DNA of 64,000 nucleotides. It comes from Colwellia sp. RSH04. Its GTDB lineage: Bacteria; Pseudomonadota; Gammaproteobacteria; Enterobacterales; Alteromonadaceae. Location: assembly GCF_003545765.1 (NCBI RefSeq), contig NZ_QXIO01000006.1, positions 124,001 to 188,000 of the forward strand. The letters run 5' to 3'. Numbering within the stretch: position 1 is the stretch's first letter; each line of letters starts with the position of its first letter. The notes beneath the pieces were generated by a model that made no database searches, had not been told where the DNA came from, and was given only the letters and a program-made list of their open reading frames with translations. Both the position numbers and the translations under genes were made by a program. Shown here one piece after another: positions 10,280-35,690 of this stretch.

Positions 10280-11143
10280 ATGATCCACAGTATGACAGCA
10301 TTCGCACGCCACGAAGTAAAAGGCGATTGGGGCAATGCTATTTGGGAAATTCGCTCAGTAAACCAACGTTTTTTAGAAACCTACTTTAGATTACCTGAAC
10401 AATTTAGAGGCATAGAGCCCCTATTGCGAGAGCGCTTTAGAAAACAATTAAACCGAGGCAAAGTAGAATGTAGTCTTCGTTTTAATGCCAACCCTGCCGC
10501 TAAAAGTGAAGTAACCATTAACGAAAAATTAGCCCTGCAACTTATTCAGCATGCCAACTGGGTTAATGAACAAACCTTAAATAGCCAAGTAAACCCAATT
10601 GAAGTTATGCGCTGGCCTGGTGTTATGGAAGCAGCAGAAGCAGACATATCAACGATTCAAGCAGAACTACTCGCAGGCTTTGATATTGCAATTAAAGACT
10701 TTATTAACGCAAGAGCCAGCGAAGGTGAAAACCTTAAAGCGATGATTGAACAGCGCTTAGACGCTATAACCATTGAAGCAGATAAAGTTCAAGAACAAAT
10801 GCCAGCCATTATAGAATGGCAGCGTACCCGTATTACCGATAAATTTACCGACGCCAAAATAGATCTAGACTCAAGCCGCGTAGAACAAGAATTAGTATTA
10901 CTTGCACAAAAAATGGATGTTGCTGAAGAAATTGATCGCCTAAAAAGCCATGTAAGCGAAACTCAAAAAATCTTGAAAAAAGGTGGTGCACAAGGTCGTC
11001 GCTTAGATTTCATGATGCAAGAGTTTAACCGTGAAGCGAATACCTTAGGCTCCAAATCAATCAATACCGACATAACTGCTAGCGCTGTAGAATTAAAAGT
11101 ACTGATTGAGCAAATGCGCGAGCAGATCCAAAATATTGAGTAA
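10280..11143 (+). CDS. yicC: YicC-family endoribonuclease; 3' end used as island attachment site
   Basis: A 287-aa protein, the same length as E. coli YicC, starting MIHSMTAFAR and containing EIRSVNQRFLETYFRLPEQFR and the DUF1732 C-terminal part with LDSSRVEQELVLLAQKMDVAEEIDRL and GRRLDFMMQEFNREANTLGSKS. The family has been described as an endoribonuclease. The last codons, QIQNIE-stop, overlap the attL core at 11123-11142: the downstream island integrated here without disrupting the protein. yicC close to rph-pyrE is an old gammaproteobacterial arrangement. Confidence 0.96.
   Translation: MIHSMTAFARHEVKGDWGNAIWEIRSVNQRFLETYFRLPEQFRGIEPLLRERFRKQLNRGKVECSLRFNANPAAKSEVTINEKLALQLIQHANWVNEQTLNSQVNPIEVMRWPGVMEAAEADISTIQAELLAGFDIAIKDFINARASEGENLKAMIEQRLDAITIEADKVQEQMPAIIEWQRTRITDKFTDAKIDLDSSRVEQELVLLAQKMDVAEEIDRLKSHVSETQKILKKGGAQGRRLDFMMQEFNREANTLGSKSINTDITASAVELKVLIEQMREQIQNIE
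11123..11142 (+). other. attL core of the yicC genomic island
   Basis: CAGATCCAAAATATTGAGTA, the last codons of yicC. The partner at 19969-19988 matches 18 of 20 bases and also encodes QIQNIE followed by a stop, with changes only at synonymous positions. This is what is expected when an element carries its own version of the gene tail used as target. Confidence 0.88.
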
Positions 11144-11180
11144 TTTTACCACCCGTTACCATTTGCAATAAATAACAATT

Positions 11181-11212
11181 AAAGCCTCGTTTTGCGGGGC
11201 TTTTTTGTTTCT
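11181..11212 (+). terminator. Terminator downstream of yicC, inside the island
   Basis: AAAGCCTCG (11181-11189) pairs with CGGGGCTTT (one G-U pair) across a short T-rich loop, followed by a run of T. It lies to the right of attL, so the yicC terminator in this genome is supplied by the island. Confidence 0.85.
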
Positions 11213-11249
11213 GTGTATTTCCATTCGTTCATAGGTGTTGTAGTATTTC

Positions 11250-11305
11250 TGGTGGGCAATATGGTGAGCGCATGATCACCATTAAAACATCATTGGTGGG
11301 CAATT
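11250..11305 (+). repeat. Left arm-type integrase binding repeats
   Basis: TGGTGGGCAAT occurs at 11250-11260 and TGGTGGGCAATT at 11294-11305, with a degenerate copy ATGGTGAGC at 11261-11269, all just upstream of the integrase gene. The same TGGTGGGC core occurs twice at the far end of the island (19875 and 19887), the expected distribution for arm-type sites bound by the N-terminal domain of the integrase. Confidence 0.7.
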
Positions 11306-11311
11306 AACAAT

Positions 11312-12529
11312 ATGGCAACTATCACAGCAAAACAAATACAGGCTTTTGTAAAAGGTGAACCTAAAAGACACCCCATCGGTAGTGGCTTGTATTTAGTTGT
11401 AAGAAACTCAGCAACTCCTTATTGGATGTTGCGCTATTCATCAAATGGTAAGAGAAAAGAAATTACATTAGGTCAGTACCCTGATTTATCATTAGCCGAT
11501 GCTAAAGCTGATGCAGCTATAAAAAAGCGTGAAGTCAATTTAGGATATGACCCTCTAATCGCTAGAAAACGAATTAAAGAGCAATCCATTAAGCTAGTTG
11601 ATGATCTCTTTGCTGATTGGTTTGATAATGATATTGCTAAGCGCCTTAAACACCCGAATATACCCAAACGAGTTTATACCAATGATGTTAAGCCCTTTAT
11701 CGGTGATATACCCCTTGATCAAGTAAATGCCCGTGATATTCGCAAAATCATTCAAGCGATATCTGATGATCGGCCAACAATTGCTAATGATGCGTTAATG
11801 TATTTAAAGCAATTATTCAGGCATGGCATAAAGTTGGATTTGATTGCTCATAATCCTGCTAGCGCGTTTACTGTTTCTGATGCTGGTGGTGTTGAAAAAA
11901 GTAAAGATAGATATTTAACTTTGGATGAAATCACCAAAGCTTTCAAAATATTTAAACAGCACCAAGCGAAGTTTAATCGAGATAACTATTTAGCTTGTGC
12001 TTTGCTTGTGACGTTAGGTGTTCGTAAAAGTGAGCTTTGTTGCGCTAAGTGGAAAGAATTTGAACTTGATAAAGCTTTGTGGCACTTGCCCGAAGGGAGA
12101 AGTAAAACAGGTGCACCAATTACCATTCCTTTACCTAAACAAGTATTAGTATGGCTAAATGAGCTAACTATACGCGCTTGTGGTTCTGATTATGTATTCC
12201 CCGCAAGGCGAGCATCGAAAAAACCTCACATGGGCGACGATACGTTAAATAGGGCTATTTCATCAATGTTTGGGCGTGAAGCTGGTCGTAAAATACAACC
12301 ACCCAATTTAATGGGGGATATGAAACCATTCTCACCGCATGACCTAAGACGAACATTTAGAAGTTTAGCGGCTTCTCAAGGAGTACCTGGTCATGTAGCT
12401 GAACGATGTCTTAATCATAAATTAAAAGGTGTTGAGGGGATTTATGATCGCCATGATTATCTTGAAGAGCGCAAAGAGGCGCATACTCTAGTCACAAACT
12501 TATTAGAGCCCGTTATCAATGGAAAATAA
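11312..12529 (+). CDS. int: P4-type tyrosine integrase of the yicC island
   Basis: A 405-aa site-specific recombinase. The N-terminal DUF4102 arm-binding domain is visible in residues 1-90 (GSGLYLVVRNS, YWMLRYSSNGKRKEITLGQYPDLSLADA). The core-binding domain follows (about 95-190), and the catalytic domain has the tyrosine-recombinase residues: Arg in LGVRKSEL, the basic beta-hairpin region around GRSKTGAPI, HDLRRTFRS (H-x-x-R), LNHKLKGVEGIYDRHDY with the final His and catalytic Tyr. It starts 169 bp after yicC and reads away from attL. It would excise or integrate the island between the yicC tail repeats. A DUF6387-like gene overlaps its end by 11 bp. Confidence 0.95.
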   Translation: MATITAKQIQAFVKGEPKRHPIGSGLYLVVRNSATPYWMLRYSSNGKRKEITLGQYPDLSLADAKADAAIKKREVNLGYDPLIARKRIKEQSIKLVDDLFADWFDNDIAKRLKHPNIPKRVYTNDVKPFIGDIPLDQVNARDIRKIIQAISDDRPTIANDALMYLKQLFRHGIKLDLIAHNPASAFTVSDAGGVEKSKDRYLTLDEITKAFKIFKQHQAKFNRDNYLACALLVTLGVRKSELCCAKWKEFELDKALWHLPEGRSKTGAPITIPLPKQVLVWLNELTIRACGSDYVFPARRASKKPHMGDDTLNRAISSMFGREAGRKIQPPNLMGDMKPFSPHDLRRTFRSLAASQGVPGHVAERCLNHKLKGVEGIYDRHDYLEERKEAHTLVTNLLEPVINGK

Positions 12530-13328
12530 CCCGAAAAAAATAGATTGTGTGCGCAGGCTAAAAAGATTAGCGAAGTGGTATCGGCCAAATAGGTATGCTT
12601 GGGTGAAAGATGCCTCATTATCTAAGATTAGTGATGAGCTATCGAGCAGACGAGTGGCTTATCATGAGTTAAAAAATAATAGCTTTGAAGATGGTTATAT
12701 CGGGGATTTATTTTCTATAACTTTAGAGGAGTTACCTGCCAAAGAACCAAGTAATATTGAGTGTGAAAGAATTCACGAAGAGTTATATAAAAGTGATGTT
12801 TATCCTGTTTCCATGGGGCATATACTTTTATGTGAAAAGAAATATAAAACGCGCTCAGATTATGATGCAGATCCGTTTTCACAAAAGAATACTATGCAAT
12901 TTCTGGCAGATAGCGATGAAGACATTTGGGTTAACTTACCGCTTTATATGCGAGATTCAGATATATTGGACGAAGTTCAAAAACTATTAAACCAGCTTAG
13001 AGCTAAGCTCAATAAGCCTCAACCAGATAATTACAAAATGAAGTCCCGTATAGAAAGACTAAAAAGAGGTGGGATTTTTGAGTATTTGGATTTAGATATT
13101 TGGGCGAAAGCAAATGGCTATTTACTTAATTTAAGTACCATTGCTCAAGCTATTAATTCGCATACTGTAGATACAGACCTTTATAGTTCAGGTTCAGAAA
13201 AGAAAGTTTATGATAAAAGAACTGTTTCGGATGATATAAAGCGACAAGCTGAAATTGCGATTACATTAAAGTTTTCTGATAAATTAGATTTAATTTTAGC
13301 TAATCAAAATAACGAAGATGTTGCGTAG
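12519..13328 (+). CDS. DUF6387-like island protein
   Basis: A 269-aa soluble protein whose ATG overlaps the end of the integrase gene by 11 bp. I read it as DUF6387-like: a central segment DIWVNLPLYMRDSDILDEVQKLL, then the C-terminal pattern IFEYLDLDIWAKANGY followed by a conserved KRTVSDDIKRQAEIAI helix. Such proteins are often encoded directly after P4-type integrases in islands. Function is unknown; involvement in excision or element maintenance is only a guess from position. N-terminus is Arg/Lys-rich (RRLKRLAKWYRPNRYAW). Confidence 0.62.
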   Translation: MENNPKKIDCVRRLKRLAKWYRPNRYAWVKDASLSKISDELSSRRVAYHELKNNSFEDGYIGDLFSITLEELPAKEPSNIECERIHEELYKSDVYPVSMGHILLCEKKYKTRSDYDADPFSQKNTMQFLADSDEDIWVNLPLYMRDSDILDEVQKLLNQLRAKLNKPQPDNYKMKSRIERLKRGGIFEYLDLDIWAKANGYLLNLSTIAQAINSHTVDTDLYSSGSEKKVYDKRTVSDDIKRQAEIAITLKFSDKLDLILANQNNEDVA

Positions 13329-13345
13329 CCCTTTAAAATCAATAC

Positions 13346-13395
13346 AACCACGTATCGTGGTTTCTCCACTGTAGTTTTTATCAAAAAATCTACGG
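13346..13395. promoter_or_regulatory. Two hairpins upstream of the AlpA-like gene
   Basis: AACCACG-TAT-CGTGGTT (13346-13362) is a perfect hairpin after the DUF6387-like gene, probably a terminator though the T-run is weak. It is followed by an imperfect palindrome from CTGTAG to CTACGG (13369-13395) that could be an operator for the AlpA-like regulator. Confidence 0.5.
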
Positions 13396-13456
13396 ACAAC
13401 AGCAATATTTTACGCACTAGTATATGCCAATCCCTATACGAACAGGCAGAGGCATT

Positions 13457-13726
13457 ATGACAGCACAATACACCCAACCCACCCCAGAGAAACGAAAAGA
13501 ACTACTACAAATAGTTGGTGAATCAGATCGCTTAGTAAAGGATCTAGAACGTAAGAAGCTGACAACTTTGAGTCGAACACAGACGTGGAAGTTAGAAAAG
13601 CAAGGCCTACACCCACAACGCCGTCAACTCAGCACTAACTCAGTAGCTTGGTTATTGTCAGACCTTTTATGGTTTATCTATAAGCAGGAACCAACAAGCA
13701 ACACTAATAAAAAATCTAATTCCTAA
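13457..13726 (+). CDS. AlpA-like HTH regulator (candidate excision factor)
   Basis: An 89-aa protein from the ATG at 13457, chosen because GCAGAGG lies just upstream; a longer frame could start at 13424 without such a site. The middle contains the MerR/AlpA-type winged helix: DRLVKDLERKKLTTLSRTQT (helix-turn-helix) then WKLEKQGLHPQRRQLSTNS and VAWLLSDLLWFI, the usual AlpA pattern of 'GLSRST...P...RAVGWxxSEIxxWI'. AlpA-type proteins activate integrase genes or act as recombination directionality factors in P4-like and MGI-type islands, so that is the likely job here. Confidence 0.8.
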   Translation: MTAQYTQPTPEKRKELLQIVGESDRLVKDLERKKLTTLSRTQTWKLEKQGLHPQRRQLSTNSVAWLLSDLLWFIYKQEPTSNTNKKSNS

Positions 13727-13779
13727 AATATTTAACCATGTAAATAGTAATCGGTCTTCAATATTCTTATAGGTAATTT

Positions 13780-14178
13780 ATGGGGTTTGAAAAAAATAAG
13801 CGGTCTAAGCCTAAAGAGCGTTTTGCTGGTATTCCTCATGTTGTTATGAATCATATTGATTATATTGAACTCAGTGGTAATGCTATCAAATTATTGCTAG
13901 AGGCTGCTAGGCAATACAATGGCAGAAATAACGGAAAACTATGCTTTGTTTGGTCACAAATGGTTGAACGTGGCTGGAAATCTAAAACGACTTTAAGCTC
14001 TGCAAAAAAGGAATTATTAGCAAAAAACTTACTTGTTATTAGCAAATATGGGGGCTTACTCCATGGTAAGGGAATACCTCAATATTATGCTTTAACTTGG
14101 CAAGCGATAGATGAAATTAACGGCTTTGAAATTGATGTTGAGCCAACAATAAAACCGATGAGAAACTTTCGGTTATAA
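13780..14178 (+). CDS. Rep-like winged-helix protein
   Basis: A 132-aa protein with the style of an N-terminal replication-initiator winged helix: FAGIPHVVMNHIDYIELSGNAIKLLLEAA, then MVERGWKSKTTLSSAKKELLAKNLLVISKYGG, a helix-turn-helix with wing, then GIPQYYALTWQAIDEI. It ends in KPMRNFRL. An iteron-like array begins 8 bp after its stop. The frame stays open for a further 34 codons after the stop, across most of the array, so the gene may once have been longer with the repeats inside its coding sequence. It may bind the repeats to control replication, copy number or its own expression; this is inference. Confidence 0.6.
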   Translation: MGFEKNKRSKPKERFAGIPHVVMNHIDYIELSGNAIKLLLEAARQYNGRNNGKLCFVWSQMVERGWKSKTTLSSAKKELLAKNLLVISKYGGLLHGKGIPQYYALTWQAIDEINGFEIDVEPTIKPMRNFRL

Positions 14179-14185
14179 AAATATC

Positions 14186-14361
14186 CTAGTCCAGTTTCTA
14201 TACCGTATCAGTCCAAAAGCTGGACTAGTATCGGTACAAAATATGGACTAGGGCTATATTTTTCGGTACAGAAATTGGACTAAGAGAGAAAGCTTAAACC
14301 CTAATTTTTAAATACGCATAAAGTTAGTGTTTGCAAACTACTGTAGTCCAGTTATTGGACT
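14186..14361 (+). repeat. Iteron-like array (AGTCCA/TGGACT units) and palindromes
   Basis: Three related 19-bp units: TAGTCCAGTTTCTATACCG at 14187-14205, and in the opposite orientation CGGTACAAAATATGGACTA at 14232-14250 and CGGTACAGAAATTGGACTA at 14264-14282. Two compact inverted repeats AGTCCA-N5-TGGACT occur at 14210-14226 and 14345-14361. A separate palindrome GTTTGCAAAC lies at 14329-14338. The array sits directly after the Rep-like gene, as origin iterons do on plasmids. Confidence 0.72.
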
Positions 14362-14451
14362 CCTATATATATAACCATATTCCAAGTATGCGAAAACGCT
14401 TGGTTAAGTGAAAAAATTAAATAAATTTAAAAAACATTAAGTGGAAATAGT

Positions 14452-14649
14452 ATGTGTAAGCAATTAAAAATAATAGAAGTGATAACTAGTAAAGCAGATC
14501 AAATAAACGTCATAGCATCAGTTGCACAACAAGGCAGTATAGAAGAGTTAAATGCAGATAAAATTGAAAGTCTATTCGGGCTAATAATGCAGATATCTAA
14601 AGACATATCATTGATAGCGAATCAGAGTGTATTTACAGAGGGTGCATAA
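14452..14649 (+). CDS. Small island protein, 65 aa
   Basis: A 65-aa predicted soluble helical protein (IEVITSKADQINVIASVAQQGSIEELNADKIESLFGLIMQI). No known family recognised. It ends 9 bp before the short tyrosine recombinase, in the same orientation, so the two are probably co-transcribed. A weak ribosome binding site (AAGTGG) precedes the ATG. It could be a real accessory subunit or a leader ORF. Confidence 0.5.
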   Translation: MCKQLKIIEVITSKADQINVIASVAQQGSIEELNADKIESLFGLIMQISKDISLIANQSVFTEGA

Positions 14650-14658
14650 ATTCTAATT

Positions 14659-15261
14659 ATGCCTAGAGTACATTCAACCAGAGATCGTGACGAGTTTAAT
14701 ATTGTCCTTAAAGCGTTAGAGAGGAATCGTGGTATTAAAGCTCGTTGGATCGCAGAACTTACAGCACTTTGGGCATTGAGAATTAGTGATTTACTTGTAA
14801 TCACAACAAGTCAAATTGATCAGTCATTTAATACTGGTGAGTTTGTAATCATTGAAAGCAAAACTAAAAAAAGGAAGGTCATTACCCTAACCAAACATGC
14901 AATAAAGTTGCTAGACGAAATGCGACTAACATTTCCAAATGATGTTTATTTATTTGAGAGTAGATATGGTGGGAAAAGGAAACCGATTAGTCGTAAAACT
15001 GTTTGGCGTTGGATGTGTGAAGTTGAACCTGATGTTATTAAATGGCGTAGATCTTGTGGCCGTCTGGGTGGAGTTAACTTAGGTACTCATTCATTACGAA
15101 AGTCAGGATCAAGGTTAAGGCAGCAAGCGGGTGTTTCATTGGAAGAACTCCAACAGTTATTGAACCATAGTAAACCAGAAACGACGATTAATTATCTTGA
15201 TAACAATGAGCAAGATTTGGTAGATACGTTTGTTGCTGGTGATAAAGCTTTGTTTGGATAA
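14659..15261 (+). CDS. Short tyrosine recombinase (catalytic domain only)
   Basis: A 200-aa protein made almost entirely of the tyrosine-recombinase catalytic domain, a size like the FimB/FimE invertases. Active-site residues seen: Arg in ALRISDLL, Lys in SKTKKRKVITL, THSLRKSGS (H-x-L-R), LLNHSKPETTINYLDN with the last His and nucleophilic Tyr. It lacks an arm-binding domain. It is the second recombinase in the island and lies next to the iteron array, so a plasmid-type resolvase role fits; an invertase acting on nearby inverted repeats is an alternative. Start ATG at 14659. Confidence 0.85.
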   Translation: MPRVHSTRDRDEFNIVLKALERNRGIKARWIAELTALWALRISDLLVITTSQIDQSFNTGEFVIIESKTKKRKVITLTKHAIKLLDEMRLTFPNDVYLFESRYGGKRKPISRKTVWRWMCEVEPDVIKWRRSCGRLGGVNLGTHSLRKSGSRLRQQAGVSLEELQQLLNHSKPETTINYLDNNEQDLVDTFVAGDKALFG

Positions 15262-15665
15262 GTTAATTAACTTGAGACAGTTTATAAGTTACGTCCCAAC
15301 AGTAAGTTAATGTATTGATATTTAAGGAATCATAGTCCTGTAGATTTAACATGACTTTAATATTGACATTTATGTTATTGGTAAGAGATAAAGCTATATA
15401 TATCAAATGACTACTTGTAAATAGATGTTCTGAAAACTATAGGGGACCCTGAGAGTTTCATTAGTAACCACGGGTGCGAGGCTCGCGGTAATTGAAAAAT
15501 ATTTACGTCTACCATAGTGCAGCATCAGCTTTACCACTTGGGTGGTAAATTACTTGTATTTATTGGGCTGTAGCTTGCTGAATTTGAGTTTTTAAATACT
15601 GTAAATACTATTTTCAATTTATAGATAAAGAAAATGTAATATTTAAACAATAAGGATAGAAAGTC
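15262..15665 (+). other. 404-bp non-coding stretch with stable hairpins, possible small RNA or leader
   Basis: A TTGACA box (about 15362) with an AT-rich GATAAA 18 bp downstream could be a promoter. About 70 nt further, GCGAG-G-CTCGC (15476-15486) and the perfect hairpin TTTACCAC-TTGG-GTGGTAAA (15530-15549) follow in a locally GC-richer block (15440-15550) inside otherwise very AT-rich sequence. No ORF fits it. An ncRNA, a 5' leader of the 70-aa gene or a recombination site are all possible. Confidence 0.45.
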
Positions 15666-15878
15666 ATGACTTCATGGTACAAAGTAGAGATAAATAAAAG
15701 AATAATTTATGCAGTAAGAATAGACGATGATAAATTAAGTGATGAAAAAAAATTAGATGAAGCTGCCCATTTAGCCGCTAATCATGAAAATGATTTTGAA
15801 GAACTTATTTGTTCACCACTTGAAGTGGGTGATATTACTAAAGTATTAAATGAGGCTGATACTGTGATAACTCACTGA
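15666..15878 (+). CDS. Small acidic island protein, 70 aa
   Basis: A 70-aa acidic protein (SWYKVEINKRIIYAVRIDDDKLSDEKK...NDFEELICSPLEVG), with a good AAGGA site before the ATG. N-terminal half looks like a short beta-sheet, C-terminal half helical. Strongly negative charge is typical of DNA-mimic or antitoxin-like proteins, but no family is recognised and no DNA-binding motif is present. It is 260 bp upstream of the methyltransferase gene and could regulate or protect against it; that is conjecture. Confidence 0.6.
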   Translation: MTSWYKVEINKRIIYAVRIDDDKLSDEKKLDEAAHLAANHENDFEELICSPLEVGDITKVLNEADTVITH

Positions 15879-16079
15879 ATTTCTACCTATAAGACCAACC
15901 TCGATATTTTACATGCAGGCATGAGAAATTGTTTATTGCAATAAGAATCTAGCGCTATATTTCATATCGAAATAGGAAATCGCATACTGTTTAAATGTAC
16001 AGTATTGGTTTGGCGTGTTATAATAAAGTAGTTATTACTAGTAAAAGTATGACACTATACAAGTTGTAGCTTATAAAGT

Positions 16080-16105
16080 GCCATTATTTCCTTGGAAATA
16101 GTGGC
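16080..16105 (+). promoter_or_regulatory. Hairpin in the leader of the methyltransferase gene
   Basis: GCCATTATTTCC (16080-16091) and GGAAATAGTGGC (16094-16105) form a near-perfect inverted repeat (one mismatch) 33 bp before the TTG start. There is no T-run, so an operator or RNA-level control of the R-M genes is more likely than termination. Confidence 0.5.
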
Positions 16106-16138
16106 CTATTGTTAGATTAAAGAAAAAGAAGAAAACTG

Positions 16139-19100
16139 TTGAACCGTCTAAATCATATATTTAAAAAGTTGAATTTGACGAAAGAAAATGGCCTTTATGT
16201 TGCTGGTGAGCATAGAGAAAGCTTATTTTCTAATCGTGTAGAAAGACTTTTACTTAAAACTATTCAACCTGATGCTTTCTTCTGTATCGATAATAAACCA
16301 CTGATTCTTTTTTTTGAAAATTTAGGAAATGAAAAAGAAGCTAAGCTTAGGGATATTTGGAATTTCAATGAATCGCCAATAATAATTATATCAGAATCGG
16401 ATTCTGTAGAAATTTATAACGGCTTTAAATATTTGACTGATGAAAATACTCTTGAATTATTTGGTAAAGATGAAGCTTTGTCAGATTTTTCATATTTTGA
16501 GTTAGTTACAGGTAATACGTGGGAAAAACATCAAAAAGGTTTTGAATCTACCAATCGAATAGATTACCACTTACTCGAAAATATTAAGTCAGCGAGAGAT
16601 ATCCTAATTTCAAAGTTTTTATCTCCCGAGCTCACAAATTCTCTTATTGGTAAAGTTATTTTTGTTCGTTATTTAATTGATAGAAAAATCAAATTGGATT
16701 TTGAGCAGCGTGGACAGTCTCGAATATGGAGCAATTCTGATTTTTGTTCTCTCCTTTCAGACAAAATTAAAGTTAACGACTTCTTTAATTACTTAAAAGA
16801 AAAATTCAATGGTGATTTATTTCCAATTACTAAAAATGAAATTGATGATATCCCTAAAGAATGTCTGGATGTATTAGTTGACTTGTTATCTGGTGACAAA
16901 GTAGGACTAGGGCAAAGATCACTTTTCGATTTATATGATTTTTCAATTATCCCTGTTGAATTCATTAGTAATGTATATGAGTTATTCATTGGGCAAGTTC
17001 AGCAAGAAGAACAAGGTGCATACTACACACCATTGTTTCTAGTAGATTATATTTTAGCTGAAACTGTTGAGAAGAAAATCTCTAAGGACGCTATTTATAG
17101 CTGTAAAGTACTTGATCCATCATGTGGTTCAGGGATTTTTCTTGTTGAAACTTTAAGAAAAATTATTGAGCAATACCAAAAGCAGAATCCGAACTACTTA
17201 TCAAATCACATTCAATATACAAATGATTTGAAGCATCTTGCTTTAGATAATATCTTTGGAGTAGATAAGGATAGGAGCGCAATTAATGTAGCTATTTTTT
17301 CTATATATTTAACTCTTTTAGATTACCAAACCCCTTCCGATATAGAGTCTTTCAGATTTCCCGTTTTACTTAATAATAATTTCTTTGCATCTGATTTTTT
17401 TGATCAAGAAGCAAACTTTAATGAAGTGTTCAGAGAGAAAGATTTTGATTTTATTCTAGGGAACCCTCCTTGGAAAGGTAATGGAATTGGACAAGAAGGA
17501 AAGAAATATTTAAAAGATAGATTAAATAGAGAAAAGGACAAAGATAAGAAATATCCCATTGCTATCAATAATGGAGAGATTGTCGAAGGTTTTATTTTTA
17601 GAGTAAGTGATTTTAGTAGTCATGATACTAAAACAGCCCTTATTGTAAGAAGCACAATTCTTTACAACAAAGGGTATTCAGAACAAAGTAAATTTAGACA
17701 ATACCTTTTAGAAGAATTTTATGTGGATAGAATTTTCGAGTTAGCTCCTGTTCGATTTGAAGTTTTTGATAGGTCTAATGACCCTGCTGTAGCCCCTGCA
17801 GCTGTATTATTTTATAGGTATGCACATGGATTAAATACTGATGATAATACCGTAGAACATATAACTTTAAAGCCAAGTCGTTTTTTCTCTTTATTTAAAG
17901 TTTTCTCTATTAGTAGGCCAGACTATAAGAAGCTTATACAAATTAAGTTAAAAAAGTATGACTGGTTATGGAAAACATTAGTTTATGGCTCTTACCTTGA
18001 CTTTAATTTCATTGCTCGATTAAAGGCGGATTTTAAATCCTTGAAGTCAGTCTTGGCGAACAAAAAACTTTTTAAAAAAGGCACAGGGGTAAAGCTAAGC
18101 AAGACTCCTTTAGAAGACACATCTCATCTTATTGGGAAGCCTTTTATTGATAGTAGAGATATTGAACCATTTTGGGCAAATACAAATGAATTACCTGAAT
18201 TTACTTTAGATAAAGTAGGAAGAAAACGAGATTTAGACCTGTTTAAAGGAACTGTTTTATTAGTTAGAAATGGACTTGATACCCACTTGTTTAAACCACG
18301 AGCAGCAATCGTTGAATCTGATATTGTTTATAAAAACTCATTAACGGGTATAAAGCCCATTTCTGGTAAAGCTAAAAGAATTCTAAAAAATATTTCAGCT
18401 AACCTTTATTCTGATTTATATCCGTATATAGCAATACATACTTTTTGTTCAATAGGAATTGAAAGAGAGCAAACTAAAGAATATGAAAAATTTGATATCC
18501 CTTATGTTGATAACTCTTTAGATGAAATTGTTAATGAGATATCTAGAACTAAAGATCTCCTGTACTCCGAGAGGCAAGAAGTTCTTATCAATAACGCAAA
18601 AGTATCTAGTTTAAAAAAGGTTGTTGCTGAAAATCTAAAAATAATTAACCAGATTATTTTTGAAAAACTTTCTATTAATGAAAATAGTTTGGAGTCTTCT
18701 TTAATTGATTACGCTTTAAATGTAAGTAGGCCATTAATTACAAAAGATAAAGACCCGCTGATAGTAAAATCTTTGTTCGGCTCTATTCCTGAAAATAGTC
18801 AGTATTTAGAAGATTATTCGAAAATATTTTTTGATAGGTTTAACTGTATATATGAGAAGTTAGATAAGAAATTAATTGTTGAAATCAAACATACGGATAA
18901 AATCTTAGGATTGTTTTTTAAATTGGTACCTCTAAATTCATTAGATGATTCCTTGCAAATAACAAAATTAGAAAGCTCTTCGATTCTTAGTTTACTTTCG
19001 TCTATTGGCGTCGAAAAAATTACAGATAGGCTTTTTATACAAAAAGATGTTCGTGGATTTGAAAAAGATGGATTTTATATAATTAAACCGAATGAACAAA

Positions 19101-19195
19101 GGCTTTGGCATAAGGCTATGGCTCATTTTGATGTAAATGAATTCATGGATGCGATTTTAGTATCAGGTAGTAAAGGGAAAAGTGATGTTTCCTAG
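16139..19195 (+). CDS. Large N6-adenine DNA methyltransferase with specificity region (Eco57I/type I-IIG-like)
   Basis: A 1018-aa protein starting at TTG (no close ATG; purine-rich AGAAGAAAA upstream). Methylation motifs in order: GAYYTP (motif X-like, Tyr295-Pro298), VLDPSCGSGIF (AdoMet motif I, residues 325-334), and NPPW (catalytic motif IV, 442-445). The region from about 600 to 850 (GKPFIDSRDIEPFW, FKGTVLLVRNG, KPISGKAKRIL, HTFCSIGIERE) looks like a target-recognition domain of type I S or type IIG enzymes. The N-terminal 100 residues (PDAFFCIDNKPLILFFE, IWNFNESPIIIISESDSVEIYNGF) are a conserved accessory domain with no clear nuclease triad. It should methylate adenine in its own recognition sequence; the nuclease is probably the separate downstream gene, which overlaps by 11 bp. 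Confidence 0.86.
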   Translation: MNRLNHIFKKLNLTKENGLYVAGEHRESLFSNRVERLLLKTIQPDAFFCIDNKPLILFFENLGNEKEAKLRDIWNFNESPIIIISESDSVEIYNGFKYLTDENTLELFGKDEALSDFSYFELVTGNTWEKHQKGFESTNRIDYHLLENIKSARDILISKFLSPELTNSLIGKVIFVRYLIDRKIKLDFEQRGQSRIWSNSDFCSLLSDKIKVNDFFNYLKEKFNGDLFPITKNEIDDIPKECLDVLVDLLSGDKVGLGQRSLFDLYDFSIIPVEFISNVYELFIGQVQQEEQGAYYTPLFLVDYILAETVEKKISKDAIYSCKVLDPSCGSGIFLVETLRKIIEQYQKQNPNYLSNHIQYTNDLKHLALDNIFGVDKDRSAINVAIFSIYLTLLDYQTPSDIESFRFPVLLNNNFFASDFFDQEANFNEVFREKDFDFILGNPPWKGNGIGQEGKKYLKDRLNREKDKDKKYPIAINNGEIVEGFIFRVSDFSSHDTKTALIVRSTILYNKGYSEQSKFRQYLLEEFYVDRIFELAPVRFEVFDRSNDPAVAPAAVLFYRYAHGLNTDDNTVEHITLKPSRFFSLFKVFSISRPDYKKLIQIKLKKYDWLWKTLVYGSYLDFNFIARLKADFKSLKSVLANKKLFKKGTGVKLSKTPLEDTSHLIGKPFIDSRDIEPFWANTNELPEFTLDKVGRKRDLDLFKGTVLLVRNGLDTHLFKPRAAIVESDIVYKNSLTGIKPISGKAKRILKNISANLYSDLYPYIAIHTFCSIGIEREQTKEYEKFDIPYVDNSLDEIVNEISRTKDLLYSERQEVLINNAKVSSLKKVVAENLKIINQIIFEKLSINENSLESSLIDYALNVSRPLITKDKDPLIVKSLFGSIPENSQYLEDYSKIFFDRFNCIYEKLDKKLIVEIKHTDKILGLFFKLVPLNSLDDSLQITKLESSSILSLLSSIGVEKITDRLFIQKDVRGFEKDGFYIIKPNEQRLWHKAMAHFDVNEFMDAILVSGSKGKSDVS

Positions 19196-19862
19196 TTTAG
19201 ATGCCACAAACTTTCAATCTTCTACATTGGTTTACGCAATAAAATTTGAAGACATACTCTCTAAAATTGTTCGCTGTTATAACATGATGGTTTCTGATTG
19301 TGTAGCTTTAGAAAATAATGAAAATGAGATAAGAGATGTGCTCTTATATAAGTATTTAAAGAATAATAGTGTAAGACAGAGTTTAGGGTTCGTTTCGGAT
19401 CAAATTCATTTTGAAAGTGAAGTAAGAGAAGATCACTCTGTTGGTAGAACTGATTTAAAAATAATTTCACCTAATATATTTGAAAAGCAAGAAGCTTATT
19501 ACATAATTGAATGTAAAAGATTGGATAAAAAATATGCAACAGGGAGTTCTGGATTAAATAAAAAATATATTGATGAAGGCATGTTTCGTTTTACTTCAAA
19601 GTATTATTCTTCTTATTACAGAGTGAATGCAATGCTTGGTTTTGTTGTTGATGACATGGATATTCGATTAAATACCAATCATATAAATCAACTCTTACTT
19701 GATACATCTTCAATTATAACTTTAAAGAAAATAACTCAGGGTAATTTTATAAATAACTTTGAGTATCACTATCATTCACAACATAGAGATGTTGATAACG
19801 AAGAATTGAAGATCTATCATTTAATGCTAGATTTTAATTTGAATATCCAAAAGCCTAAGTAA
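19185..19862 (+). CDS. PD-(D/E)XK nuclease-like partner of the methyltransferase
   Basis: A 225-aa protein from ATG 19185 (GTG at 19182 is also possible), overlapping the methyltransferase gene by 11 bp, which implies coupled translation. A compact PD-(D/E)XK site is visible: GRTDLKI with Asp90, then AYYIIECKRLD with Glu109 and Lys111 (E-C-K). The rest is helical, with no helicase or DNA-binding domain. I infer it is the restriction subunit of a split R-M system whose DNA specificity is provided by the large methyltransferase. I do not recognise an established family name. Confidence 0.75.
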   Translation: MFPSLDATNFQSSTLVYAIKFEDILSKIVRCYNMMVSDCVALENNENEIRDVLLYKYLKNNSVRQSLGFVSDQIHFESEVREDHSVGRTDLKIISPNIFEKQEAYYIIECKRLDKKYATGSSGLNKKYIDEGMFRFTSKYYSSYYRVNAMLGFVVDDMDIRLNTNHINQLLLDTSSIITLKKITQGNFINNFEYHYHSQHRDVDNEELKIYHLMLDFNLNIQKPK

Positions 19863-19874
19863 AAACTTATTCGA

Positions 19875-19897
19875 ATGGTGGGCTAAATGGTGGGCTA
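19875..19897 (+). repeat. Right arm-type integrase binding repeats
   Basis: TGGTGGGCTAA occurs twice in tandem with a 12-bp period (19875-19885 and 19887-19897), about 70 bp before attR. The TGGTGGGC core matches the left-end copies at 11250 and 11294. Confidence 0.7.
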
Positions 19898-19968
19898 AAG
19901 AGAGCTCCTATGTGGATTGATTATCCAAACTCATGTTTTTAAATGTTTTTTCACTAATACTCTATATT

Positions 19969-19988
19969 CAGATCCAAAACATAGAGTA
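19969..19988 (+). other. attR core of the yicC genomic island
   Basis: CAGATCCAAAACATAGAGTA, followed by G, reads in frame QIQNIE-stop exactly as the end of yicC, but with different third-position bases. Upstream sequence does not resemble yicC, so only the core is shared. The 19862-20155 interval holds nothing else that I can support apart from these att features. Confidence 0.86.
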
Positions 19989-20155
19989 GACAATTTAGTA
20001 CCTGTTATTTAGCGGCATTGATATATTAAGTGTTAACAACCGCTAACTACAATTTGAAAGCAGGATAATCAGTTATTCACATTGCTAATGTAGAAATAAA
20101 ACTCGCTATCATTTACAATCTTTTTTTTGGAAGTAACTTAAAAAATGGATTCAAT

Positions 20156-20545
20156 GTGAAAAAAATAATCTTAGTAGTCATTGCAGTTTTTATTTTATCA
20201 GCTTGTAAAACAACGCCTGTTTATAACGTAGATAATTCGAACGTACCTGAGGGCATAACTGCAAAACAAGTAGAAAAAAATATAGTAAAGGCTTTAAACC
20301 AAAAAGGTTGGAAAATTACTGATAAAAGTAAAGATGCGATTATTGCTGAAATCAACGTAAGATCACATTTTGCTAAAATTAAAATATCTTTTGATGAAAA
20401 ACAATATGCTATCGATTATGTAGACAGTACAAACTTAAAATATAATGCTCAAAAAAATACGATTCACAAAAACTATAATAACTGGATTATCTATATAGAC
20501 AGGTTAATTCAATCGGGTTTAATAGAAGACAGTTATAACAATTAA
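20156..20545 (+). CDS. Conserved small lipoprotein
   Basis: A 129-aa lipoprotein with GTG start (the ATG two bases earlier is out of frame). Lipobox FILSAC puts the lipidated Cys at residue 17. The mature protein follows a pattern known in a conserved proteobacterial lipoprotein group: PVYNVDNSNVPEGITAKQVEKNIVKALNQKGW, then IIAEINVRSHFAKIKISFD and a YNNWIIYIDRLIQ end. Function unknown. Its stop is 2 bp from the end of the convergent PPTase gene. It is the first gene beyond attR and may be outside the APE operon proper. Confidence 0.78.
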   Translation: MKKIILVVIAVFILSACKTTPVYNVDNSNVPEGITAKQVEKNIVKALNQKGWKITDKSKDAIIAEINVRSHFAKIKISFDEKQYAIDYVDSTNLKYNAQKNTIHKNYNNWIIYIDRLIQSGLIEDSYNN

Positions 20546-20547
20546 TT

Positions 20548-21159
20548 TTAAATCTTTGTTGCTATTGAAACAACATAGTCATCTTCGATTAGACTAGACA
20601 GCTGATAGTTACGTTTCAGCACACTTGAAGATTCATTTAACGTATTGAATATTGAGGTGTTTAACAATTTGGTTAGCGCCTCTTTTTCAGTCCAGATCTT
20701 ATAAAATTCATTAATTGGATTCTGCGATGAATGTATTAATTCACGATCTTCTTCACAATAAAAATTAAGTGCTATTGATGCTATATCTCTGTTAGTTTTC
20801 TGCTCAATATCTACGCCTATACTTTCATTTAAGGCACAAAAGCTAAAAGCGATATATTCTCCACTATGACTTAAGGAAAGTTTTTGTATTAATTCTTGCT
20901 GTTGAAATACACCTGCAGCGCCAATTTCAGGGCAGTATTTTATAGTGAGTATTTTTGCTTGCTGCTTTTTCTTGTTCAACGCTTTCTTTATCAAATAACG
21001 GCTAAATATAAACTCTGAAGCTTTACGTTGCCTCTTTGCAAGGATCAACAACTCTTCAGAGCTTAAATAATCCTGTTGGTATTGGTTTTTTGAGGTGTCC
21101 ATTTTGCCAATATATAGCGTTTTATCCTTCCCTTGCTGCTTGATTAAAAAAGATTTCAT
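20548..21159 (-). CDS. 4'-phosphopantetheinyl transferase (APE cluster)
   Basis: A 203-aa Sfp/AcpT-type enzyme that loads the phosphopantetheine arm onto acyl carrier proteins. Diagnostic motifs: ESIGVDIEQK (metal and CoA binding, GVDIE) and FYKIWTEKEALTK (W-x-x-KEA). It is divergent from the APE operon and shares its 80-bp intergenic region, so it most likely activates the two ACPs encoded at 22740 and 23005. Confidence 0.9.
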   Translation of the reverse strand: MKSFLIKQQGKDKTLYIGKMDTSKNQYQQDYLSSEELLILAKRQRKASEFIFSRYLIKKALNKKKQQAKILTIKYCPEIGAAGVFQQQELIQKLSLSHSGEYIAFSFCALNESIGVDIEQKTNRDIASIALNFYCEEDRELIHSSQNPINEFYKIWTEKEALTKLLNTSIFNTLNESSSVLKRNYQLSSLIEDDYVVSIATKI

Positions 21160-21171
21160 AATGTAACAATA

Positions 21172-21200
21172 TTGTAGAGAAAATACCTATTTGGTAAAAT
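21172..21200 (+). promoter_or_regulatory. Candidate promoter of the aryl-polyene operon
   Basis: TTGTAG (-35-like, 21172-21177) and TAAAAT (-10-like, 21195-21200) are separated by 17 bp, 40 bp upstream of the first plus-strand APE gene. Confidence 0.55.
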
Positions 21201-21239
21201 AAATGAGAAATCACCCAGTTATAGCAAAAGCATAACGTA

Positions 21240-21977
21240 ATGAAACTATATATAAATAAAATTCACGTATGGCTAAATGGACTTAATGATAGCACTTCGC
21301 TAAATTCATGGGCAAATGGCGATATAGAATTACCGAATACTTATGCTTTACCAAAACCGGCATATTACCCAAAAACTCAACTAAGGCGATTAAGTCCCTT
21401 TAGTAGAGTAGCCCTGCATTGTTTAGATATGCCACAAGTCCTAACTGCGTCACTTCCTTTGATTTTTGCATCACGACACGGTGATTTAGCTAAGACAGTG
21501 AAGCTAATTAAAGATTCAGCATCTGGCGAAGACTTATCACCAACACAATTTGCATTATCAGTTCATAATGCAACCTCAGGCCTGTTTGGTATAGCAACAA
21601 AAAATACCACTGCAACCACAACGATTAGTGCTAGTAAAAATACCTTTATCGAGGGGTTGATTGAAGCGTTAATGCAATGTCAAAAAAATCACGAAGAAGT
21701 ACTTTATTGTTATTGTGATTTTGATGTTCCTGATGAATATCGTCAATATGAAGAGAAGCAACCGGCAAGATGTATTGCATTATTGCTTTCCGCCGTTAAA
21801 AGTAAAGAGACGCTTGTAAGTATCGATTTATCGCCAAATAGCACCTTATCAAATAAAAAAAGCGTACAAAGCAAGCAAGAAACCCCGCCCTGTATTGATT
21901 TTATTCGACACATGTACTGTCAAAGTCAAGAGAATATAGCGTGTAAAAACTACACTCTCTCTTTAGGCTTTCATTAA
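21240..21977 (+). CDS. apeC: Beta-ketoacyl synthase chain-length factor, APE biosynthesis
   Basis: A 245-aa shortened ketosynthase-like protein without the catalytic Cys: INKIHVWLNGLND at the start, LRRLSPFSRVALHC, SLPLIFASRHGDL, and SPTQFALSVHNATSGLFGIATKN, the regular pattern of APE chain-length factors. In the described aryl-polyene pathway it forms a heterodimer with a full ketosynthase (ApeO type, here 34015). First gene of the long plus-strand operon; its stop overlaps the next ATG. Confidence 0.88.
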   Translation: MKLYINKIHVWLNGLNDSTSLNSWANGDIELPNTYALPKPAYYPKTQLRRLSPFSRVALHCLDMPQVLTASLPLIFASRHGDLAKTVKLIKDSASGEDLSPTQFALSVHNATSGLFGIATKNTTATTTISASKNTFIEGLIEALMQCQKNHEEVLYCYCDFDVPDEYRQYEEKQPARCIALLLSAVKSKETLVSIDLSPNSTLSNKKSVQSKQETPPCIDFIRHMYCQSQENIACKNYTLSLGFH

Positions 21978-22747
21978 TGCAAAAGTTAAATTATTTGTGG
22001 CGTATTGTCGCGACTGGAATATGCTTTTTTACTTTTGGTCTTGGTGCATTGTTCATTTCTTCTCTTATCTTCCCACTACAAGCATTGTTTATTAAAAATA
22101 AATCAAAACGCAAACAAAAAGCGAGATTTACGATTCATAAATCGTTTGCTTTTTTTATCCACCTAATGCAATGCTTGGGAATTTTAACAGTAAACAAGCA
22201 TAATTTCAGTCAACTGCAGGCTTTGCGAGGCAAAGTAGTGATAGCCAATCATCCATCATTAATAGATGTAGTTGCCATAATTGCTTACCTTCCTAATGCC
22301 AACTGTGTAGTGAAATCAGCACTTTTTAAAAACCCTTTTTTGCGAGGAGTTGTAAAACGTGTAGGGTATATAGACAACGACAGTTCAGAGCAATTGTTTA
22401 TTGATTGTGCCAATAGCTTGTCTGAAGGTAGTAATATTGTTGTTTTTCCTGAGGGCACGCGTAGTAAGAGTGGACAACCACTTAAATTTAAAAGAGGTGC
22501 CGCAAATATTGCAATACGTTGTCAAACAAATTACCAACCAATCACCATTTCTGTTGTTCCAACTACACTAACTAAACAAGAATCATGGTATGATGTGCCG
22601 CATAAAAAATTTGTAATTACCCTAACTGCCTTAGCAGAAATTGATAACAGCAAATATTTTAATCATGAAAACATTTCATTGGCAGTACGAGCACTTACCC
22701 GTGAAACAGAGCAGTATTTTTGTAAGGAATTAAAATTAAATGGCTGA
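21977..22747 (+). CDS. apeD: Lysophospholipid acyltransferase-like (PlsC family), APE cluster
   Basis: A 256-aa membrane-associated acyltransferase. N-terminal hydrophobic anchor (residues about 10-38), then the PlsC motifs: ANHPSLIDVVA (H-x4-D catalytic pair) and VVFPEGTRSKSGQP (glycerol-phosphate/acceptor site), plus GAANIAIRC. Such enzymes are standard APE cluster members, probably esterifying the polyene or a lipid intermediate. Overlaps apeC (1 bp) and the first ACP gene (8 bp). Confidence 0.88.
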   Translation: MQKLNYLWRIVATGICFFTFGLGALFISSLIFPLQALFIKNKSKRKQKARFTIHKSFAFFIHLMQCLGILTVNKHNFSQLQALRGKVVIANHPSLIDVVAIIAYLPNANCVVKSALFKNPFLRGVVKRVGYIDNDSSEQLFIDCANSLSEGSNIVVFPEGTRSKSGQPLKFKRGAANIAIRCQTNYQPITISVVPTTLTKQESWYDVPHKKFVITLTALAEIDNSKYFNHENISLAVRALTRETEQYFCKELKLNG

Positions 22748-22991
22748 CATTAAAGCGACATTAAAAGCATTGATTATTGACACTCTAGACTTAGAAGATA
22801 TTTCACCTGAAGATATCATTGATAATGAACCACTCTTCGGTGATGGTTTAGGGTTGGACTCTATCGATGCCTTAGAATTAGGCTTAGCAATAAAGAAAAC
22901 TTTTGATGTGAAAATTGAAGCTAACTCTGAAAAAACTAAAGAACATTTTTACTCTATTGATAACTTAGTTAAATTTATTGAACAAAATTAG
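22740..22991 (+). CDS. apeE: Acyl carrier protein 1, APE cluster
   Basis: An 83-aa ACP carrying growing polyene chains as thioesters. The phosphopantetheine site is GLDSIDALEL with Ser41; the surrounding acidic helices are typical. Overlaps the acyltransferase gene by 8 bp and lies 13 bp before a second ACP. Confidence 0.92.
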   Translation: MADIKATLKALIIDTLDLEDISPEDIIDNEPLFGDGLGLDSIDALELGLAIKKTFDVKIEANSEKTKEHFYSIDNLVKFIEQN

Positions 22992-23004
22992 TATTGAGAA
23001 AACC

Positions 23005-23256
23005 ATGCAAACTAAAGAAGAACTACTAACCATGTTAACCGAATTATTGGTTAATGAATTTGAAATTCCAGCAGAGGATATTACCTTAGGAGCATCATTA
23101 TATGAAGAATTAGACCTTGATAGTATTGATGCCGTTGACCTTGTAGTTCGTTTACGCGAAATAACTGGCAAAAAAATTGCGCCTGAATCTTTTAAAGAAG
23201 TGCGTACCGTTGAAGATATCGTTAATGCATTATTACAACTAACTTCAGCAGCATAA
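23005..23256 (+). CDS. apeF: Acyl carrier protein 2, APE cluster
   Basis: An 83-aa ACP starting at the ATG at 23005 (preceded by TTGAGAA); an in-frame extension back to 22978 would overlap the first ACP. The attachment site is LDLDSIDAVDL with Ser40. Two ACPs are the rule in APE clusters, one thought to carry the starter and one the extender steps. Confidence 0.92.
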   Translation: MQTKEELLTMLTELLVNEFEIPAEDITLGASLYEELDLDSIDAVDLVVRLREITGKKIAPESFKEVRTVEDIVNALLQLTSAA

Positions 23257-23292
23257 CCCTCACGACAATAGAGTATCGGTAATAATATCGTA

Positions 23293-23871
23293 ATGAAAAT
23301 TATCCTAACGCTAATATCGATACTTTACCCTTTGGTAGTGTTTTATGGTTTAGCTGAGTTTTCTGTACGTTGGGTTAGCCTGATACTCTTATTGCTTTTT
23401 CTAACGCGACTTTTACTGCTTAAAAAAAGTAACACTCTAGAAAAGCAAAACAAACAATTACTGAGTGACAAAGCCAGCAAAATAATTACCATTTGGGTAG
23501 CAAGCTTTTTATTGATGAGTTTTATTTTTGGCAATGATACTGGCTTATTATTTTACCCAGTTATCATCAATGCTGCCTTAGCGTTAGTTTTCTCTTACTC
23601 TTTGGCTAACCCACCACCAGTTATAGAGCGCCTTGCGCGTTTAACACAAGCCGAATTGCCGCCTCATGCGATAGCGTATACCCGAAAGGTAACCAAAGTT
23701 TGGTTAGGCTTTTTTATTATCAATGCCATTATCGCTTGTTATACCGCGTTATTTACTAGCCTAGCAACTTGGACTTTATATAACGGATTAATTGCTTATA
23801 TCTTGATGGGCGTGCTTTTTACAACTGAGTATTTAGTGCGATTAAGGGTACAAAAGCTTAATGACAATTAA
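23293..23871 (+). CDS. apeG: COG4648-type membrane protein, APE cluster
   Basis: A 192-aa integral membrane protein with about four to five hydrophobic segments (ILTLISILYPLVVFYGL, VSLILLLLFLTRLLLL, IIINAALALVFSY after LLFYPV, WLGFFIINAIIACY, LIAYILMGVLF). The motif GNDTGLLFYPVIINA and RLTQAELPP are characteristic of the family found in APE loci. Function unknown; a role in membrane assembly of the pigment complex is likely. Overlaps the ligase gene by 11 bp. Confidence 0.8.
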   Translation: MKIILTLISILYPLVVFYGLAEFSVRWVSLILLLLFLTRLLLLKKSNTLEKQNKQLLSDKASKIITIWVASFLLMSFIFGNDTGLLFYPVIINAALALVFSYSLANPPPVIERLARLTQAELPPHAIAYTRKVTKVWLGFFIINAIIACYTALFTSLATWTLYNGLIAYILMGVLFTTEYLVRLRVQKLNDN

Positions 23872-25210: not shown

Positions 25211-25222
25211 AGTGAAATTTCA

Positions 25223-25576
25223 ATGAACAACAGCAAAGAGCAACGATTACCAACCATTACCCAAGTTGAACAAGAAACAGACAAGCTGGTATTAGCGCTC
25301 ACCATTGATGCCGAATTACGGTGCTTTAAAGGGCACTTTGATGATGCCGCGATTGTCCCTGGTGTAGTGCAATTAGATTGGGCTGTCACTTTTGCTAAAA
25401 CCTATTTAACCATGCAAGGTGATGTACAAGATGTTGGCGTATTAAAATTTCAAAACTTATTATTACCCAATACACAGGTTCAGCTAGAAATAATCAAAAA
25501 ATCATCTGCTAAATTCACTTTCAGTTATACCGCTGAAGATGAAAAGTACTCTTCTGCTCGGGTTGAGTTGGCGTAA
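25223..25576 (+). CDS. apeI: Hot-dog 3-hydroxyacyl-ACP dehydratase, APE cluster
   Basis: A 117-aa FabA/FabZ-like protein. The central helix segment CFKGHFDDAAIVPGVVQLDWAVTFAK matches the FabZ pattern GHFPxxPIxPGVxQ. In the described pathway ApeI works together with the other dehydratase (here 35227) to create each new double bond. Its stop overlaps the next start (TAATG). Confidence 0.88.
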   Translation: MNNSKEQRLPTITQVEQETDKLVLALTIDAELRCFKGHFDDAAIVPGVVQLDWAVTFAKTYLTMQGDVQDVGVLKFQNLLLPNTQVQLEIIKKSSAKFTFSYTAEDEKYSSARVELA

Positions 25577-27319: not shown

Positions 27320-27328
27320 GATTTAAAA

Positions 27329-28876: not shown

Positions 28877-29309
28877 ACAAACATGTTTATCTACCTCGGT
28901 AGATATTGAAATTCCGTTTCATGACTGTGACCCAATGCATATTGTATGGCATGGCAACTACCCGCGTTACTTTGAAGTAGCGCGTTGTCAGCTATTACGC
29001 TTATTTAATTATGATTACCTTGATATGCAAGAGTCTGGCTATATGTGGCCGATTGTTGATATGCGAGTTAAATATGTCGGCTCTGCAAAGTTTACCCAAG
29101 TGATTACCGTTACTGCAACCTTGGTTGAGTATGAACATAGGATCAAAATTAACTACCTGATCACTGATAAGGTCTCTGGCGCAAAGTTAACAAAAGGTCA
29201 TACCGTACAAGCGGCTGTTTCAATCGCAACTGATGAATTGCAACTTGAATCACCTGCCATTTTACTGGAAAAGCTACAACCGTTATTAGCAACGTTAAAA
29301 GAAGACTAG
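28869..29309 (+). CDS. apeK: Hot-dog thioesterase, APE cluster
   Basis: A 146-aa 4-hydroxybenzoyl-CoA-thioesterase-type protein. Start at ATG 28869, overlapping the lyase gene by 8 bp; the in-frame ATG at 28812 would overlap much more. The catalytic segment is FHDCDPMHIVWHGNYPRYFEVAR with an Asp in DCDPMHIVWHG. It probably releases stalled or finished acyl chains. Confidence 0.88.
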   Translation: MSKQTCLSTSVDIEIPFHDCDPMHIVWHGNYPRYFEVARCQLLRLFNYDYLDMQESGYMWPIVDMRVKYVGSAKFTQVITVTATLVEYEHRIKINYLITDKVSGAKLTKGHTVQAAVSIATDELQLESPAILLEKLQPLLATLKED

Positions 29310-29311
29310 CC

Positions 29312-32255: not shown

Positions 32256-32303
32256 ATTAAGTTGGCGCGCTATTAAAGACGTCAAAAAAATGGAAGTAAC
32301 AAG

Positions 32304-33404: not shown

Positions 33405-33406
33405 CC

Positions 33407-35217: not shown

Positions 35218-35226
35218 TAAATAGTC

Positions 35227-35679: not shown

Positions 35680-35690
35680 CAGGAAGAATA

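Follow-up and report, generated by a model that had tools for sequence, protein, structure and literature searches.

Why does the 3′ end of one gene occur twice, some nine kilobases apart, in the same stretch of DNA, and which of the two copies belongs to the host? We addressed this at the yicC locus of Colwellia sp. RSH04 (our genome code G000) in a stretch of 64,000 nt, NZ_QXIO01000006.1:124,001-188,000, hereafter the window. The segment between the two copies is very probably an 8,846-bp P4-type integrative island that entered the 3′ end of yicC and carried a yicC tail of its own. It is a small further example of an already known kind of yicC-specific island.

The left repeat, CAGATCCAAAATATTGAGTA (11123-11142, + strand), and the right repeat, CAGATCCAAAACATAGAGTA (19969-19988, + strand), are identical at 18 of 20 positions, and a pattern spanning both finds no further site in the window with up to three mismatches (chance expectation 0.02; none of 100 shuffled sequences held two). 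Taken as 21-bp copies (11123-11143 and 19969-19989), they agree at 18 of 21 bases, and both read Q-I-Q-N-I-E-stop in frame, with TAA on the left and TAG on the right. The left copy is the true 3′ end of an intact yicC. Two synonymous tails matching at 18 of 20 bases had been reported by a first-pass annotation of this DNA, and on these points it was right: the pair of tail copies is real, and so is the island. We take the right repeat as the island end because it is backed by arm-type repeats, TGGTGGGC, at matching spacing; such repeats occur on both sides of the island, spaced as in the islands of Colwellia sp. D2M02 (G029), G017 and G034. A terminator-like hairpin follows yicC and was seen by eye at the same place in the islands of G029, G003, C. 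psychrerythraea GAB14E (G016), G017 and G034.

The integrase gene beside the left copy reads away from it, as had been noted at first pass, and starts 168 bp past the yicC stop. Its product matches PF13356 (Arm-DNA-bind_3, 5e-18) and PF00589 (1.1e-17), and a profile search links it to 3jtz, a CP4-like integrase chain. A set of 84,980 species, each represented by one genome, yielded 291 relatives of this integrase, of which we kept the best 80. Within these 80, 79 begin 169-378 bp past the last sense codon of yicC, directly after the gene expected from the first-pass target assignment; the 80th has only 107 bp of upstream sequence, too little to tell its target. The yicC tails before the 79 integrases read QIQNIE (56), QIQNVE (10), QVQNIE (7), QIANIE (5) and QAQNIE (1), each followed by a stop. 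Judged by these neighbourhoods, the integrase family is yicC-specific. Identity to the RSH04 protein is 78-95% at 10 of the 80 loci and at most 64% at the others, and searches of phages and plasmids returned matches below 60% identity only, both for the integrase and for the type IIG protein encoded by the island.

Related genomes, which the first-pass annotation had proposed to compare, contain both the empty and the filled form of the site. We searched 61 relatives, one genome per species, and found yicC in 59 and yceH (DUF480), the conserved neighbour, in 37. Among the 27 Colwellia genomes with yceH, yicC lies within 1 kb of it in 10 and 2.8-56 kb away on the same contig in 14; in two the genes are on different contigs, and one has no yicC match. 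Eight of 17 possible empty loci examined run from yicC through a terminator-like hairpin to yceH. The other nine do not show this order, and one of them, in G027, is occupied. In five of the 14 genomes with the wider spacing, G029, G017, G034, G019 and G020, the conserved yceH-side flank is directly preceded by an attR (right attachment site) copy; G020 has no integrase match, and the integrase of G019 is distant (47% identity).

Three points weigh against this simple picture. First, 21.6 kb of other DNA separates attR from yceH (41626-42381) at the RSH04 locus, and the right boundary is accordingly drawn from attR and the arm repeats instead of from a direct empty junction of this lineage. 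Second, neither an excised circle nor an island-free strain of the same species was seen in a genome set with one genome per species. Third, the element side of attR (..ACTCTATATT) is unlike the ..AATAAG or ..AACAAG found in G029, G016, G017, G034 and the integrase-less G020. A composite of two islands, suggested by this differing arm, was considered and set aside: the arm repeats do match, and a similar element side, ..AATATT, occurs in L108 (82% integrase identity).

The DNA between attR and yceH encodes ketoacyl synthases, acyl carriers and an ammonia-lyase-like protein at 20156-37651, which from gene content we presume to be an aryl-polyene-like biosynthesis cluster; in G003 and G034 the cluster is located away from yicC, and G001 and G035 hold parts of it. 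On one reading of the additional 21.6 kb, the segment at 11.1-20.0 kb would be a relic, degraded or composite, and would form one unit in a larger array that extended to yceH at 41.6 kb and whose other ends have been lost. Extra DNA between attR and yceH is also present in G012 and G016, and the yicC-yceH interval is a hotspot with inserts of 0-56 kb. However, no other att-like copy with up to five mismatches occurs on the + strand of the window from 11144 to 64000, the cluster is not tied to yicC in G003 and G034, and the named open reading frames (ORFs) of the island are open from start to stop. We therefore regard a relic as unlikely and retain a single island ending at attR.

Which tail came with the element is a harder question. 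The first-pass annotation took the two synonymous ends to show that the element carries a coding copy of its target and restores yicC on insertion, but the repeats alone do not tell which copy arrived with it. Sister islands are more telling. From the first base after yicC, the island DNA is 88% identical to the G029 island; one 5.3-kb alignment of the two genomes (88.7%) runs from yicC to about position 15585 of the window and then diverges, and yicC itself is 80% identical. Of its 21 bases the left tail shares 20 with the tail of the G029 island, and at positions 10 to 19 it is the same as the tail of the G003 island. The right tail shares 20 of 21 bases with the 3′ end of yicC in G036, a genome without this integrase. 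Taken together, the tails of relatives are mixed evidence. Against the simple argument, G025, the closest relative by yicC (86% DNA identity), resembles the left copy more than the right (18 vs 16 of 21), and G031, which lacks this integrase, has 20 of 21 bases in common with the left copy; G036, our host-type reference, itself has 9.5 kb between yicC and yceH. Because the relatives' tails disagree, the argument leans on the sister islands and on the point of strand exchange. Since the left tail and the DNA behind it match the sister islands, a synonymous coding tail and a terminator most likely arrived with the element, and the right tail is most likely the displaced host tail. The restoration of yicC by an element-borne tail thus stands as the most likely reading, without the proof from the repeats that had been claimed for it.

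To locate the exchange we compared the two tails within 30 attL/attR pairs, 11 from an unconstrained attR scan and the others from pattern searches. The scan gave candidates in 16 of 85 islands (2 of 85 in a shuffled control), of which 13 were kept; L113, L138 and L182 were excluded for a matched tail without a stop, and L126 and L154 stayed in the attR list but were omitted from the position count. L105, L106, L107, L111 and L114 had been excluded from the 85 islands because they duplicate G genomes. L107 represents G003, and since the G003 contig stops within the island, G003 is not among the 85 either. Six genomes with tail copies on separate contigs were not counted as pairs. For 20 of the 30 pairs, in which the left and right copies are presumed partners, the search pattern permitted almost only synonymous variation, so these 20 cannot support synonymy.

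Across the 30 pairs there are six differences in total at positions 2-8 of the 21-mer, and 7, 13, 14, 13, 8 and 12 at positions 9, 12, 15, 18, 20 and 21, respectively. Silent position 6 differs three times against 15.3 expected (11.8 when tails are re-paired within Colwellia and within the rest), and none of 20,000 re-pairings was as low; at silent positions 9, 12 and 18, differences are about at the chance level of re-paired tails. From the matching of position 6 and the lack of it at 9, 12 and 18, we infer a 7-base overlap, AGATCCA here, with strand exchange within it, before position 9. Some of the data sit poorly with this placement. Four of the 30 pairs break the overlap: G012 (positions 5 and 7), G091 (3 and 6), G066 (6) and G096 (6). 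Matching within pairs extends to position 13, which lies outside the overlap (1 difference vs 10.4), because amino acid and lineage go together, and position 15 has a mild deficit (14 vs 20.8); lineage structure therefore contributes to the pattern. Published attachment sites are compatible with a short core: they measure 21 bp in two yicC islands and, for GI21 at its secondary site, 9 bp (PMC8978831).

In the scenario we favour, recombination by the integrase between the yicC tail and an attP resembling it, with strand exchange inside AGATCCA, would give an island extent of 11124-19969 or, equivalently, 11131-19976. The predicted attP junction comprises the arm repeats, CAGATCCAA and the element tail. 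The body of yicC would be joined to the element tail at the third base of the second Gln codon, followed by Asn-Ile-Glu-stop and then by the element's own terminator-like hairpin, and the original host tail would be displaced to the right end. The YicC protein would be unchanged because the element-borne tail encodes the same residues. For excision, the AlpA-family protein probably serves as the excisionase, by homology to Shewanella islands. Read in this way, left and right tail pairs show how a mobile island can swap the last codons and terminator of a conserved gene for its own synonymous version, and they place strand exchange in a 7-base stretch within coding sequence, a testable prediction.

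Table. Features of the yicC locus and island; positions refer to the window.
Feature	Position	Strand	Basis
yicC (YicC/YloC family endoribonuclease), target gene, intact frame	10280..11143	+	TIGR00255, 380.7 bits, residues 1-287
attL: yicC tail CAGATCCAAAATATTGAGTAA; part from ~11131 probably element-borne	11123..11143	+	tail and flank like G029 and G003 islands
Putative 7-bp strand-exchange (overlap) region AGATCCA in attL	11124..11130	+	position comparison, 30 attL/attR pairs
Terminator-like hairpin behind yicC, probably element-borne	11181..11203	+	pattern match; 8 such sites in region vs 4.8 in shuffles
Three arm-type repeats TGGTGGGC / TGGTGAGC / TGGTGGGC at 11250, 11262, 11294	11250..11301	+	
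int: P4-type tyrosine integrase, 405 aa (Arm-DNA-bind_3 + Phage_integrase)	11312..12529	+	Pfam
DUF6387 protein (269 aa), overlaps int stop	12519..13328	+	PF19924, E 1e-49
AlpA-family excisionase/regulator, likely recombination directionality factor	13424..13726	+	PF05930; phrog_2790 excisionase
132-aa protein, possible winged-helix DNA-binding (weak model)	13780..14178	+	structure model
Seven TGGACT/AGTCCA motifs, partly AGTCCA-N5-TGGACT dyads (iteron- or operator-like)	14188..14361	.	
65-aa backbone ORF	14452..14649	+	
Second, short (200 aa) tyrosine recombinase, catalytic domain only	14659..15261	+	PF00589, E 2.4e-17
70-aa ORF	15666..15878	+	
Type IIG restriction enzyme-methyltransferase, 1018 aa, cargo	16139..19195	+	PADLOC PDLC03603, 1096 bits over 2-1010; N6_Mtase/Eco57I (Pfam)
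226-aa partner ORF, overlaps IIG gene	19182..19862	+	ORF
Two arm-type repeats TGGTGGGC at 19876, 19888	19876..19895	+	
attR: CAGATCCAAAACATAGAGTAG; left part element, right part probably displaced host tail	19969..19989	+	20/21 identical to G036 yicC end

The gene order resembles that of the excisable islands of the GI21/GISpuPO1 type, with GI21 compared by its published description. According to PMC8978831, GI21, GISpuPO1, GISspANA3 and GIPspSM9913 of Shewanella and Pseudoalteromonas have yicC as their target, as here, although GI21 itself sits at a secondary site, and the attachment sites of GISpuPO1 and GISspANA3 measure 21 bp, like our tail copies. The tyrosine integrase of this type lies directly 3′ of the yicC end and reads away from it, as it does here. 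Next to attL, GI21 has an integrase, a 277-aa hypothetical protein and an AlpA-family Xis, an order akin to int, DUF6387 and AlpA in the window. GI21 is 21 kb long with a type I restriction-modification (RM) system and HipAB, whereas the RSH04 island is 8.8 kb with a type IIG system and an extra short recombinase, and HipAB was not seen in it. Xis-driven excision of GI21 and GISpuPO1 has been demonstrated experimentally (PMC8978831), and by analogy the AlpA-family protein here probably acts as an excisionase.

A second known group has the same landing site. The first-pass annotation had linked the island to mobilizable genomic islands (MGIs) of the MGIVflInd1 type, which would make it an element moved in trans by an SXT/R391 integrative and conjugative element (ICE) through an SXT-like oriT, under SetCD activation. 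In that type the oriT is 63% identical to the SXT oriT over 282 bp, and SetCD-binding motifs precede rdfM and cds4. Our data do not support the label, and we hold it to be quite improbable. Much is shared: MGIVflInd1-type islands also occupy the yicC 3′ end and have a tyrosine integrase, a small directionality factor (AlpA-type here) and no relaxase (PMC4344509, PMC5704250), and neither a relaxase nor MobI was recognised in a Pfam scan of our island proteins. For MGIVchMoz6, another island in yicC, PMC5704250 lists a type II RM system. The sizes given there, however, are 18-33 kb as opposed to 8,846 bp, and MobI (PF19456) was found neither among the island proteins nor in the RSH04 genome, although SXT-type MGIs borrow theirs from the ICE. 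Few genomes of the class have the MobI family, which the search recovered in 8 of 369, with 7 of these above the cut-off, and blastn of nine MobI loci from eight genomes against the island gave chance-level matches only, for loci not proven to be SXT-type references. MobI-carrying, IncC-mobilizable MGIs (MGIVmi1, MGIVchHai6) differ in having a MobI gene, for which our island has no PF19456 match. SGI1-like yicC elements such as IEEcoMOD1 share the integration site and a tyrosine integrase but carry mpsA, traG, traN and sgaC (PMC8409611), and the nine scanned island proteins contained no such domains.

That the right repeat is a chance match, with the true island end elsewhere, is hardly credible: chance copies do exist (at G000:C1:277805, with control matches in 2 of 39 genomes), but the low expectation in the window, the in-frame tail with its stop, arm repeats 93 and 81 bp to its left at matching spacing, and 20 of 21 bases shared with a real yicC end (G036) all argue otherwise. 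The copy on C1, the third exact tail match in the genome (G000:C1:277805-277824), was rejected as an att site and is taken as a chance match because it lies antisense within a 98-aa ORF and has no neighbouring integrase, none being seen by eye among the 17 ORFs listed in the surrounding 16 kb.

Behind the integrase, the island shares a partial backbone with its relatives. Within the stretches of at most 10 kb examined downstream of the 80 integrases, homologues of AlpA occur at 10 loci, of the second recombinase at 8 (three only 26-28% identical), and of DUF6387 and the 132-aa protein at 5 each. The second recombinase, which lacks an N-terminal domain, is a backbone part with 77-96% identity in five sister islands. 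A FimB-like role for it, inverting a promoter that controls the RM gene, was considered and rejected, as none of the 25 longest inverted pairs (of 106) resembled an invertible promoter.

The 132-aa protein has no family match in Pfam or PHROGs. Its structure model has a mean predicted local distance difference test score (pLDDT) of 50, and a fold search gave weak matches only, among them the CodY winged-helix domain and Rep initiators, none at E ≤0.001. Directly after its gene, the TGGACT/AGTCCA motif occurs in 7 copies, compared with 11 in the rest of the window. The G029 island has this motif too; G016, L108 and L110 have other repeat sequences in the same place, as judged by eye. Nearby lies an AT-rich stretch, TATATATATAACCATA, that G016 preserves and that has similar counterparts in L108 and L110. 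We speculate, with considerable doubt, that yicC islands carry an interchangeable immunity or replication code made of the 132-aa protein and these repeats. If protein and sites did co-evolve, islands with different codes could sit in tandem at one yicC locus, much as plasmids of different incompatibility groups share a cell.

The type IIG enzyme is probably an anti-phage or anti-plasmid cargo; a PDB search with it returned a type I methylase subunit and MmeI, both of them weak matches. Its 226-aa partner ORF has no family match in Pfam, PADLOC or PHROGs at E 0.01, nor in NCBIfam, and was found only in this genome among 295 of the order searched, with no homologue in viral contigs; its structure model has a mean pLDDT of 30. 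In a scan of ten chosen proteins from five sister islands, G034 carried Gabija A and B, G017 a type I methylase, a type I restriction enzyme and a UG17 reverse transcriptase, G012 Olokun A and B, and G029 a weak Argonaute-related match; G016 carried a type II methylase and another protein without a match. The cargo range at Colwellia yicC thus spans type IIG, type I and type II RM, Gabija, Olokun and a defence-type reverse transcriptase. That yicC islands can carry defence systems is already known from Shewanella, Alteromonas and Proteus (PMC12016545). Our literature search for Colwellia together with yicC returned only PMC8978831, and the present data add Colwellia to the bacteria in which interchangeable defence cargo lands at the end of yicC.

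Two further observations concern the yceH side of the locus. The longest candidate island of the Colwellia set, G024:C15:29784-83270, has tail copies 53.5 kb apart, with yceH 2.6 kb past the far copy. The first-pass annotation had made its island depend on the right repeat being absent from strains that lack the segment; this holds save for one genome, G013, where the repeat lies at the 3′ end of yceH and has different flanks. In G013, which has no yicC-yceH island, yceH ends ...SEQVRKQIQNIE-stop, and 21 bases there (L185:2929-2949, the same as G013:C46:41428-41448) equal the attR of the window. The likeness to a yicC end extends further left (score 26; maximum of 200 shuffles 13), and in G019 yceH is likewise followed by a stretch resembling the yicC tail, though more weakly (score 17, against at most 13 in shuffles), making two of the 16 yceH ends tested. 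Such a stretch may be the fossil of an older yicC-end duplication that carried yceH.

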